DNA from: Pseudoalteromonas ulvae UL12
GTDB taxonomy: Bacteria > Pseudomonadota > Gammaproteobacteria > Enterobacterales > Alteromonadaceae
Assembly: GCF_014925405.1 (NCBI RefSeq)
Contig: NZ_AQHJ01000019.1
Coordinates: 1-64,000 of the forward strand
DNA length: 64,000 nucleotides
Direction of reading: 5' to 3'
A program made the position numbers and the translations under genes. The notes under the pieces were generated by a model. It was not told the origin of the DNA. It searched no databases and worked only from the letters and a program-made list of their open reading frames with translations. This document shows, piece by piece, positions 2,778 through 54,556 of this stretch. The first letter of the stretch is position 1. Each line of letters opens with the position of its first letter.

Positions 2778-3134
2778 TTATCGCTTAATAGGCTTACGAG
2801 GACCCTTACGAGTACGCGCGTTAGTCTTAGTTCTTTGACCACGAAGTGGTAAAGAGCGACGATGACGAAGACCACGATAGCAACCAAGGTCCATAAGACG
2901 TTTGATATTTAATGTGATTTCACGACGAAGATCACCTTCAACGGTGTACTTGCCTACTTCTTCACGAAGTACATCAAGTAATTCTTCGTTTAATTCGCCG
3001 ATTTTAGTTGTTTCAGCGATTCCTGTCGCAGCTAAGATAGCCTTAGAGCGAGTTTTACCAACACCATAAATAGCAGTTAATGCGATAACAGCATGTTTAT
3101 GATCAGGGACGTTAATGCCAGCAATACGGGCCAC
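2778..3134 (-). CDS. rpsM: 30S ribosomal protein S13
   Basis: S13 is 118 residues ([19 protein letters not shown]...[10 protein letters not shown]) and sits in the small-subunit head, contacting P-site tRNA. I place the start at GTG 3132-3134. An AGGAG lies eight bases upstream of it, whereas the in-frame GTG at 3138-3140 would be only two bases from that AGGAG. E. coli rpsM also starts with GTG followed by GCC-CGT. The start lies within the S4-responsive leader fold. Confidence 0.97.
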
Positions 3135-3206
3135 TAACACATCTCCTATATTAGAATTTGATTATATTCTGTTGAAAAGCCCGTTAGGATACTCAACCAA
3201 TAATCA
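3135..3206 (-). promoter_or_regulatory. Alpha-operon leader (S4-binding pseudoknot)
   Basis: The minus-strand sequence directly before rpsM reads TTGAGTATCCT, then ACGGGCTTTTCAAC, then an A/T stretch and AGGAG before the GTG start. These blocks match the E. coli alpha mRNA leader (Rfam Alpha_RBS family as I recall it), where S4 traps a pseudoknot and blocks initiation on rpsM. The blocks and their order are seen directly; the pseudoknot fold is inferred. Confidence 0.8.
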
Positions 3207-3222
3207 AACTTCAACCAAGAAC

Positions 3223-51285: not shown

Positions 51286-51342
51286 CTAAATGATAATTAT
51301 TATCAAAAAAGTATTGACCTCTGATTTAATCTAATTAATAAT
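51286..51342 (+). promoter_or_regulatory. Fur-box-like site and promoter of sRNA unit 1
   Basis: The 19-mer at 51286-51304 (core AATGATAATTATTATC) matches 15 of 19 positions of the Fur consensus. Ten bases further is TTGACC (51314-51319), a 17-base spacer and an AATAAT -10 (51337-51342). Units 2 and 3 have the same layout. Fur binding here would block the promoter under iron sufficiency. Confidence 0.75.
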
Positions 51343-51348
51343 CAATCT

Positions 51349-51553
51349 CATTAAAGCACGAGATGCTTCACTTATTTAAATCTCTTTCTCGACCCTGGAA
51401 GACGTTTCGCAGTACGTTAACTGCCTGGCGACTGTTACGAAGAATTCTAACGCCCCTGAACCATTCGTAACAGGAGTCGACCCATTTACTTGCTACATTG
51501 CTCATATCGGTGACGGTAGATATGAAACCAAAAAGCCCTAACGGGCTTTTTTT
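51349..51553 (+). ncRNA. RyhB-like small RNA, copy 1
   Basis: A transcript of about 205 bases is predicted from just after the -10 to the T-run of an intrinsic terminator (GCCC-TAAC-GGGC then seven T, 51535-51553). It contains ACATTGCTCA (51495-51504), identical to part of the E. coli RyhB core as I recall it, followed by a CATATC/GATATG hairpin. The 5' portion differs from copies 2 and 3, but blocks such as TTCTCGACCCT, GAAGACGT, CAGTACGTTAACTG and CGCCCCTGA are shared. Length fits the long RyhB of Vibrio. It probably silences iron-using proteins under iron limitation; targets are not determined. Confidence 0.7.
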
Positions 51554-51682
51554 ATGTCTAAAAAATGACTCTTCAACCAAGTAGAAGCTGAAAAGATACT
51601 GTCTCACCCAATTACCCAGTTTTGTTGGTATTAAAACAATTCACATTACTGCCTCAACCTTACCTAAAATAAAACCACAAAA

Positions 51683-51739
51683 AAAAATGAGAATTATTAT
51701 CAAAAAGGTATTGACCTGAATAAGTTTCTAATTGATAAT
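51683..51739 (+). promoter_or_regulatory. Fur-box-like site and promoter of sRNA unit 2
   Basis: AAAAATGAGAATTATTATC (51683-51701) matches 15 of 19 Fur consensus positions. TTGACC is at 51711-51716 with a 17-base spacer to GATAAT (51734-51739). Confidence 0.75.
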
Positions 51740-51745
51740 CAATCT

Positions 51746-51956
51746 CAACAAGACAGTTAACGACGTAACACAACTGACTAAACCAACTTCTCGACCCTAG
51801 AAGACGTCCAACAGTACGTTAACTGATTAGGCCACTGTAGCCTTTGTCTCTATCGCCCCTGAGCCATAAATTACGGTGGCCAACCTATTTACTTGCTACA
51901 TTGCTCATATCGGTGACGGTAGATATGAAACCAAAAAGCCCTAACGGGCTTTTTTT
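51746..51956 (+). ncRNA. RyhB-like small RNA, copy 2
   Basis: The predicted transcript is about 211 bases, ending in the same GCCC-TAAC-GGGC plus T-run terminator (T-run 51950-51956). ACATTGCTCA is at 51898-51907. Apart from the copy-1 differences upstream of position 51887 it shares all conserved blocks with copy 1, and it is identical to copy 3. No ORF of note is present. Confidence 0.72.
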
Positions 51957-52085
51957 ATGTCTAAAAAATGACTCTTCAACCAAGTAGAAGCTGAAAAGAT
52001 ACTGTCTCACCCAATTACCCAGTTTTGTTGGTATTAAAACAATTCACATTACTGCCTCAACCTTACCTAAAATAAAACCACAAAA

Positions 52086-52142
52086 AAAAATGAGAATTAT
52101 TATCAAAAAGGTATTGACCTGAATAAGTTTCTAATTGATAAT
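52086..52142 (+). promoter_or_regulatory. Fur-box-like site and promoter of sRNA unit 3
   Basis: This is an exact 403-base shift of unit 2: the Fur-like 19-mer at 52086-52104, TTGACC at 52114-52119 and GATAAT at 52137-52142. Confidence 0.75.
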
Positions 52143-52148
52143 CAATCT

Positions 52149-52359
52149 CAACAAGACAGTTAACGACGTAACACAACTGACTAAACCAACTTCTCGACCC
52201 TAGAAGACGTCCAACAGTACGTTAACTGATTAGGCCACTGTAGCCTTTGTCTCTATCGCCCCTGAGCCATAAATTACGGTGGCCAACCTATTTACTTGCT
52301 ACATTGCTCATATCGGTGACGGTAGATATGAAACCAAAAAGCCCTAACGGGCTTTTTTT
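52149..52359 (+). ncRNA. RyhB-like small RNA, copy 3
   Basis: The predicted transcript is identical to copy 2, with ACATTGCTCA at 52301-52310 and the terminator T-run at 52353-52359. An extra copy would raise dosage of the RNA. Sequence diverges from copy 2 immediately after the terminator, from position 52363. Confidence 0.72.
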
Positions 52360-52425
52360 ATGCCTATCAAATAATCACTTTTCATTTTTGTCTGTAGATA
52401 AAGATTTTTGAGTGGACGGGTTATT

Positions 52426-53611: not shown

Positions 53612-54556
53612 TTAGCGTCGATTTTTACGTGCTCGAGCACGACGCTCCTTTTTCTCTTGTTCTTTTGCTGCTTTTTTTGCCTCTGCTGCTGCTCGCAACT
53701 GCGCGACCATCACTTCTTCTTCGTCACGCATCGCCGGCGTTTCCATAGTGATACGGCCAATAATGCCATCTCGCAATTCATTAATCAGAATTTCAGACAT
53801 TTTATGTGTATCAACTTGGTTACCTTGACGGATACAACCGCGCTTTTTACCTGCCATTTCAACAAACTGCCAATCTTGCTCTGGCAACTCATCAATTTTA
53901 TAACGCTGTTTTAATAGCTCAGGATAAGTAACAAGCAAATATTCAGCGGTGTAACTTGCTACGTCTTCGTACTCAATGGCCGTATCACGAATGGCACCTG
54001 TTGCTGCTAATCGGTAGCCAGAATTTTCGTTTTCTACTTTTGGCCATAACATCCCTGGTGTGTCATACAACATGATGCCATCTTCAAGCTTTATACGTTG
54101 CTGCGCTTTTGTCACCGCAGGTTCATTACCTGTTTTTGCAACAATACGCCCAGCAAGGGTATTAATCAATGTCGATTTCCCAACATTGGGGATCCCCATA
54201 ATCATGGCTTTTATTTGCTTATCTGCACCCACTTTATGCGGAACTAACTTTTTACAGATTTCGTTTATTTTGTGTACTTCAGCAGCTTTGTCATGGCCAA
54301 AAGCAATCGCTTTGACGCCATTTTCTTGCTCAAAGTAAGTCATCCAAGCTTGAGTAAGCTTAGGATCAGCAAGATCTGCTTTATTTAATATTTTAATCAC
54401 TGGTTTATCAGCACGTAGTGCTGTCACCATTGGATTTTCACTACTGTAAGGAATACGCGCATCGAGAACTTCGATAATCACATCCATTTGCGGCATGATT
54501 TCTTTAATTTCGTTGCGGGCCTTATTCATGTGGCCAGGGAACCATTGGATCGCCAT
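53612..54556 (-). CDS. ylqF: Ribosome biogenesis GTPase YlqF/RbgA-like
   Basis: The 314-residue circularly permuted GTPase starts MAIQWFPGHMNKARNEIKEI. The G4 motif KILNKADLAD precedes G1 GIPNVGKSTLINTLAG (about 125-140), and G3 DTPGMLWPK follows. The C-terminal ANTAR-like domain and a lysine/arginine-rich tail follow. It acts in late large-subunit assembly. It starts an operon with DUF4124 and the MBL protein. Confidence 0.94.
   Translation of the reverse strand: MAIQWFPGHMNKARNEIKEIMPQMDVIIEVLDARIPYSSENPMVTALRADKPVIKILNKADLADPKLTQAWMTYFEQENGVKAIAFGHDKAAEVHKINEICKKLVPHKVGADKQIKAMIMGIPNVGKSTLINTLAGRIVAKTGNEPAVTKAQQRIKLEDGIMLYDTPGMLWPKVENENSGYRLAATGAIRDTAIEYEDVASYTAEYLLVTYPELLKQRYKIDELPEQDWQFVEMAGKKRGCIRQGNQVDTHKMSEILINELRDGIIGRITMETPAMRDEEEVMVAQLRAAAEAKKAAKEQEKKERRARARKNRR

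Follow-up and report, generated by a model that had tools for sequence, protein, structure and literature searches.

A tandem array of three putative Fur-repressed small RNA genes, predicted functional counterparts of RyhB, in Pseudoalteromonas ulvae

Marine bacteria often face scarce iron. In the 64,000-nucleotide stretch of the Pseudoalteromonas ulvae UL12 genome analysed here (contig NZ_AQHJ01000019.1, hereafter the window), an intergenic gap holds three consecutive units that an original prediction had read as iron-regulated, RyhB-like small RNAs (sRNAs), and the locus raises the question of whether this genus possesses an iron-sparing RNA and, if so, whether that RNA is RyhB. No RyhB-type RNA of Pseudoalteromonas is named in the titles or abstract openings of the open-licence papers listed, which is not proof of absence, and none is mentioned for the genus in the available portions of PMC11277574, PMC12096840 and PMC11882849; the last describes Csr sRNAs, and the word ryhb does not occur in its main text as available. 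We consider it likely that the array consists of three copies of a Fur-repressed, trans-acting, iron-sparing sRNA, a functional counterpart of RyhB, a reading drawn from features visible in the DNA itself: units, promoters, Fur sites, terminators, RNA structure, conservation and complementarity to sdhC. Iron would probably be spared by shutting down iron-rich enzymes, as by RyhB in Escherichia coli.

The array lies on the forward strand at 51286-52362, where, as had been predicted, three same-strand units follow one another, each made up of a Fur site, a −35/−10 promoter and a predicted RNA of about 205-212 nt that ends in a terminator. The TTGACC −35 hexamer, 17-base spacer and −10 described earlier were found at all three: the hexamers read TTGACC-17-AATAAT in unit 1 (51314-51342) and TTGACC-17-GATAAT in units 2 and 3 (51711-51739 and 52114-52142). 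With starts placed from the −10 and predicted ends, the RNAs would extend over 51349-51553 (unit 1), 51746-51957 (unit 2) and 52149-52360 (unit 3, of the same sequence as unit 2). Each unit closes with AAAAAGCCCTAACGGGCTTTTTTT after about 205-212 nt, in agreement with the expected length of about 205-211 bases and an end of GCCC-TAAC-GGGC plus a T run. Intrinsic terminators are placed at 51530-51553 and 51933-51957 by the forward-strand scan, which lists units 1 and 2, and at 52336-52360 by the identity of unit 3 to unit 2 through the T run. Terminator-like sites on both strands number 8, compared with 0.8 in shuffles; promoter-like sites taken alone show no excess (4 versus 3.5 expected from shuffles). 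The only open reading frames of at least 60 residues in the gap are one of 79 residues on the minus strand across unit 1 and the edge of one of 66 residues; neither resembles a gene, in line with the earlier claim of a gap free of protein-coding genes. The array sequence occurs three times in the genome, solely at this place. A gene for an MBL-fold protein and a DUF4124 gene sit between the array and a minus-strand GTPase gene (53612-54556; Pfam MMR_HSR1), which we take to be of the RbgA/YlqF type.

A Fur-box-like 19-mer scoring 15/19, the score reported earlier, was recovered in each of the three units (51286-51304 in unit 1); among 4972 random 280-nt windows drawn from the fetched loci, 92 had a best score of at least 15. 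A stricter search used the 7-1-7 form, which we take to be the Fur consensus. This form is perfect at 51291-51305 in unit 1 and has one mismatch each at 51688-51702 in unit 2 and 52091-52105 in unit 3. Further sites with two mismatches overlap the −10 of units 2 and 3 (51733-51747 and 52136-52150), so that their promoter regions extend over 51711-51747 and 52114-52150, and a weaker Fur-like repeat with more than two mismatches covers the −10 of unit 1. All five sites with at most two mismatches in the 64-kb window fall within the array; ten shuffles of the window contained no perfect and no one-mismatch site and 11 two-mismatch sites. A 1.2-Mb sample of the same genome holds 1 perfect site, 4 with a single mismatch and 25 with two, and the genome encodes a C-terminal half of Fur (65% over 55 amino acids).

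To place the array among its relatives, 174 distinct units were kept from the fetched loci, those within 330 nt of the start or 110 nt of the end of a locus being dropped, and most unit counts below refer to the 115 that share less than 85% identity. A −10 was not found for 14 of these 115. Two classes were distinguished: class B units have the same core as class A units and lack the CGCCCC hairpin described below. A subset, A2, comprises 31 of the 91 class A units. A recognisable promoter is present in 89 of the 91 class A units; in 79 of these 89 the start of the best Fur match ahead of the −35 lies exactly 23 nt upstream of that hexamer, and in raw counts without a shuffled control, matches with at most two mismatches were found before the −35 in 52 and over the −10 in 83. 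The same promoter layout was seen in 22 of 24 class B units.

The predicted RNA of unit 1 contains a hairpin with a CUCGACCC loop (51383-51402), delineated by conservation and folding, and a large hairpin with a conserved CGCCCC loop (51427-51478; about 51830-51881 in unit 2). These are followed by a conserved core of about 41 nt (51485-51525, 51888-51928 and 52291-52331 in units 1, 2 and 3), which comprises the seed UUUACUUGCUACAUUGCUC and, after it, a CAUAUC/GAUAUG hairpin. In the folds listed, the seed is unpaired or partly paired and precedes this short hairpin and the terminator. Folding z-scores are −3.97 for unit 1 and −3.78 for unit 2, and for neither was any of 200 shuffles as stable. 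The parts conserved across the 115 diverse units are the Fur box together with the promoter, GTTTCTCGACCCTGAAAC, ACGCCCC, and TTTACTTGCTACATTGCTCATATCGGTGACGGTAGATATGA together with the terminator. In 90 of the 91 class A units, GCCCC belongs to an apical loop enclosed by at least six pairs, compared with 12 of 91 when the flanks were shuffled; the stem around it varies in sequence. In 31 of these units the C-rich hairpin gave a covariation score of 0.631 versus 0.250 after shuffling (0 of 500) and 0.09-0.21 when slid, and all ten tested pairs change on both sides, compared with 7.9 in shuffles. The constancy of the apical loop together with the covariation indicates that the RNA has been selected as a structure. 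The CGCCCC and CUCGACCC loops are strongly conserved across the genus, and no partner was found for either. The C-rich loops were also considered as blockers of gene starts, which was rejected: their complements occur in 1-5 gene starts each, those of reversed controls in 0-6.

The core was scored by duplex energy, which ignores mRNA folding, against gene starts in the window and 1.2 Mb of the same genome (a 1.26-Mb sample in which 985 of the 986 starts given by a simple reading-frame caller were scored). The previously suggested target sdhC gained support from a predicted pairing at its translation start in ten of ten Pseudoalteromonas sequences. In the present genome the duplex ranks 6 of 985, a result equalled by 4 of 1000 shuffled cores; five gene starts outscore sdhC and, by eye, mostly lack a link to iron. 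Across the ten Pseudoalteromonas sequences sdhC ranks 0-14 of 985, or 0-5 when only positions −45 to +15 were scored. In all ten, GGGCAAGTAAC stands at −12 before GTGAAAAAGCAA, which carries the GTG start, and falls within the best duplex; when a longer stretch was scored, one locus (L272) formed a better duplex elsewhere. Two sdhC starts from other families (L263 and L264) lack GGGCAAGTAAC and rank 60 and 97, so some pairing exists without that site; in the longer stretch their duplexes are also fairly good (−21.5 and −21.1). For two other targets suggested earlier the outcome was negative: the sodB duplexes rank 383 and 603 of 985, and aconitase ranks 342 here and 79-907 over 12 starts from the genus. 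Both were dropped because duplex energy gave no consistent pairing.

Pattern searches were less specific to sdhC. The exact site TGAGCAA-N-GCAAGTA was found at sdhC in only some genomes among the matches listed. The looser pattern TGAGCAA-N(2-9)-GCAAGTA occurs in 108 of 108 genomes of the genus, mostly, among the matches listed, in the sRNA genes themselves or in scattered places, and because many of these matches are sRNA genes it provides no evidence for sdhC. The seed complement TGAGCAATGTAGC has 168 sites with at most two mismatches in the P. ulvae genome, including the three units, compared with 75 for the reversed pattern. At rank 13 of 985 for core pairing stands a gene start (L306:15300) whose product appears by eye to be CydA-like (cytochrome bd subunit I). 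By eye, the pairing site at the sdhC starts L265-L275 overlies a short ATGGGCAAGTAA reading frame that closes immediately ahead of the GTG; this frame perhaps reflects translational coupling.

From these features we propose the following mechanism. When iron is plentiful, iron-loaded Fur would occupy both boxes, one upstream of the −35 and the other over the −10, and block transcription. When iron is short, each promoter would give rise to an RNA of about 205-212 nt ending at its own terminator, and UUUACUUGCUACAUUGCUC would pair with the translation start of sdhC, leading to repression and a saving of iron. Other mRNAs for iron-using proteins would probably be paired and repressed through the same seed. 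The RNA may depend on Hfq; a search of the sampled 27% of the genome did not find this protein, a result that says little. Additional copies may provide a higher dose.

A covariance model, R1, was built from the 3′ part of 45 units and matches 107 of 108 Pseudoalteromonas genomes, the present one included, in 1-5 copies. The exception, G016, is matched by neither the unit nor R1; its assembly is a draft in about 180 contigs and has one match to the looser pattern above. A named scan for the core yielded 105 stretches, and among the matches listed 80 of 80 are from Pseudoalteromonas. A search of the order with R1 found matches in 4 of 394 genomes, all Pseudoalteromonas, a weak negative for other genera given the strict filters and the nine candidates scored per genome. 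Among 39 genomes of the family, a strong match was present only in P. ulvae and in one other member of the genus (G050); this search, laxer than that of the order, listed numerous matches with E up to 1, of which the strongest from another genus had an E of 0.0039. With unit 1 DNA as the query, weak matches were obtained in three genomes of other families out of 119 relatives (E from 7.5e-5 to 6.6e-4). As far as these samples reach, the units appear restricted to the genus and nothing convincing was seen outside it, absence there being weakly tested. In other genera of the family, 38 weak loci matching R1 or the Rfam RyhB model (RF00057) were inspected, all of which lack the ten bases shared with RyhB (see below); they were rejected as relatives for this reason and because most look like bare terminators. 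Two of the 38, L206 and L214, have a Fur-like 19-mer of 14/19 upstream. In L214, from G517, this 19-mer lies 92 nt upstream of an RF00057 match of 24.4 bits with a terminator, and the locus is possibly a RyhB-like gene in another genus.

The genomic surroundings differ between the two classes. In stretches of at most 8 kb, a length at which neighbours can escape detection, the RbgA-type GTPase was found in 56 of 72 with class A units versus 2 of 33 with class B units only, and a YaeQ gene often follows. In other Pseudoalteromonas, class B units form a single-copy second locus between genes for DUF6279 and Sel1-repeat proteins (for example L111:4005 and L103). An aldehyde dehydrogenase gene lies beyond these neighbours, the arrangement being alike in both loci examined. 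No fourth match above 24.2 bits was present in the P. ulvae genome, and the class B locus was not found there.

Units 2 and 3 are an exact tandem duplication (51484-52362, forward strand): 476 bp are identical at an offset of 403, 51484-51959 being equal to 51887-52362. The identical block begins at the core of unit 1. The duplication looks recent, and such a starting point is what unequal crossing-over between cores would produce. The assembly is a draft in 34 contigs, which calls for caution about the third copy. A hand tally of R1 matches in the 108 genomes of the genus gave no copy in 1, one in 11, two in 38, three in 33, four in 21 and five in 4. Tandem cores were found in 45 of the 105 named stretches (two cores in 26 and three in 19, spaced 245-675 nt apart), and four cores stand in a row in genomes such as G029 and G120. 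The three-unit array had been thought notable in this lineage; it is real, but in Pseudoalteromonas such arrays, with two to four copies, are a common feature. For 64 of the 71 units in 30 arrays, the nearest relative is in another array, and for 56 of these the two positions agree when counted from the 3′ end, a tally made with no null model and including several strains of one species. Most copies thus look old and distinct. The array described here is an exception, units 2 and 3 being exact copies.

The relation to RyhB itself is less direct. The ten bases ACATTGCTCA occur in every unit and in E. coli RyhB, which bears out the earlier statement that part of the units is identical to the RyhB core; of the pairing core ACATTGCTCACATTGCTTCC of E. 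coli and its relatives, these ten bases are all that the units have in common. A shared decamer arose in 57 of 3000 shuffles of the unit and in 34 of 20,000 core-versus-core shuffles, a chance of 0.2-2%, which makes a coincidence no more than moderately unlikely. RF00057 gave no match to the array at the gathering cut-off or at E up to 10, the 55-bit covariance threshold not being reached, and none anywhere in the genome at the E limits used. The Rfam models of PrrF and CsrB were likewise absent from the 19 array matches at E up to 10. Other Rfam matches, with E from 0.2 to 10 and including STnc50 on the minus strand and several snoRNAs, were rejected as lying far below the cut-offs. The array neighbours (MBL-fold, DUF4124, RbgA-type GTPase) differ from the yhhX-ryhB-yhhY arrangement of E. 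coli, although the neighbourhoods of known RyhBs vary too. Because of the missing RF00057 match, the other neighbourhood, the lack of sodB pairing and the chance level of the decamer, we do not file the units as members of RyhB; on present evidence, the Fur sites and the sdhC pairing suggest that they work like RyhB. Of the original prediction, a tandem array of Fur-box sRNA genes, which proved to be conserved through the genus, and sdhC as a predicted target are supported; membership in the Rfam RyhB or PrrF families and the targets sodB and aconitase are not.

The units resemble E. coli RyhB in the putative Fur box, a RyhB feature present at all the array promoters, in ACATTGCTCA within the pairing core, in the terminator and in a predicted sdh target, SdhABCD being named as a RyhB target in PMC2964681, as far as the available text goes. 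They differ in length (about 205-212 nt versus an annotated 95 nt), in the extra hairpins with C-rich loops, in the lack of an Rfam match and of sodB pairing, in their neighbours and in their tandem copies. According to the same text, the RyhB of Shewanella oneidensis, which has a Fur box of 15/19 and the RyhB core, was missed by Rfam and BLAST and found through synteny and the core, and does not control TCA genes; Shewanella amazonensis has two tandem RyhB copies, at most two being reported (PMC2964681). These RNAs belong to another genus and another locus and are likened here by description, not by sequence, but they call for caution and lower the novelty of the present array. PrrF1 and PrrF2 of Pseudomonas aeruginosa are likewise tandem, iron-responsive sRNAs, as portrayed in the portion available of PMC4211561, with an iron-sparing role given in an abstract, and their tandem layout of Fur-box sRNA genes appears to be present in the array; unlike them, the units have no Rfam PrrF match, and in Pseudoalteromonas they reach four in tandem. 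The Csr sRNAs Pf1-Pf3 of Pseudoalteromonas fuliginea are also several siblings in one genus (PMC11882849 and PMC9927453, in part); they bind CsrA (PMC11882849). CsrA-binding RNAs carry many GGA motifs. Unit 1 has two of these and unit 2 has none, so the CsrB-type trait is absent. In a genome of another family (G072), two RyhB-type cores with the canonical CATTGCTCACATTGCTTCC lie 366 nt apart (L150:1644 and L150:2010) and score 36.1 and 32.6 bits, under the Rfam cut-off; other parts of the order thus also have RyhB in tandem.

Two origins are compatible with an iron-sparing counterpart of RyhB. We give nearly an even chance to a true, much diverged RyhB ortholog that moved and grew, with only the decamer and the Fur box left unchanged. 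The decamer falls in the most conserved part of the units, and 15 of the 119 relatives, every one from another family of the order, have an RF00057 match with E no higher than 0.001 (above the cut-off in 9); two of the three other-family genomes weakly matched by unit 1 are among the carriers of RF00057 matches, and the Shewanella RyhB likewise escaped Rfam and BLAST (PMC2964681, in part). Against such descent stand the silence of RF00057 on the array at E up to 10, the unlike neighbours and the chance level of the decamer. Moreover, when unit DNA was compared with the 15 loci around the other-family RF00057 matches, the Fur box, terminator-like sequence and scattered short pieces aligned and the RNA body did not, and the 39 family genomes contain no intermediate: none has an RF00057 match above the cut-off, and 18 have weak ones at E up to 0.1. 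Somewhat less probable, in our view, is a separate origin, in which the genus evolved an iron-sparing sRNA independently and this RNA came to do the work of RyhB, as the genus-restricted occurrence in our samples, the architecture with C-rich loops, the different locus and the lack of GGGCAAGTAAC at the two outgroup sdhC starts would suggest. This origin has to accommodate a shared decamer that falls exactly in the conserved seed, a weakly tested absence outside the genus and, within the family, the weak RF00057 match with its Fur-like 19-mer at L214. A fuller version, in which Pseudoalteromonas lost the RyhB of its order and evolved its own iron-sparing sRNA out of a different source, with old, position-specific tandem copies and a second locus, double Fur boxes and a seed co-evolved with the sdhC box, is more doubtful still; if it were true, the C-rich loops may read a second class of targets.

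Two other readings would change the function itself. The units could be Fur-regulated RNAs with another main role, such as control of siderophores or the envelope, or C-rich loops acting on a protein, the sdhC pairing then being incidental. The two conserved loops, for which we have no explanation, and the five gene starts that pair better than sdhC would fit this, but a pairing at one fixed site in ten of ten species makes it improbable. That the units encode small proteins or dual-function RNAs is very improbable: a 35-codon reading frame can be seen by eye in unit 1, but in units 2 and 3 this frame is interrupted by a stop codon, also by eye, and over 101 units the longest frame varies from 7 to 44 residues, its length not being conserved.

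As an iron-sparing counterpart of RyhB, a genus-wide family present in 107 of 108 genomes and invisible to Rfam would supply Pseudoalteromonas with a missing iron-sparing regulator. Its arrays would constitute a natural experiment on what leads bacteria to retain several sibling sRNAs, and the family would allow a test of co-evolution between an sRNA and sdhC while the rest of the RNA gets replaced. Elsewhere in the window, positions 3102-3211 match the alpha operon ribosome binding site (RF00140) at 93.2 bits, which is an unremarkable leader of ribosomal-protein genes.
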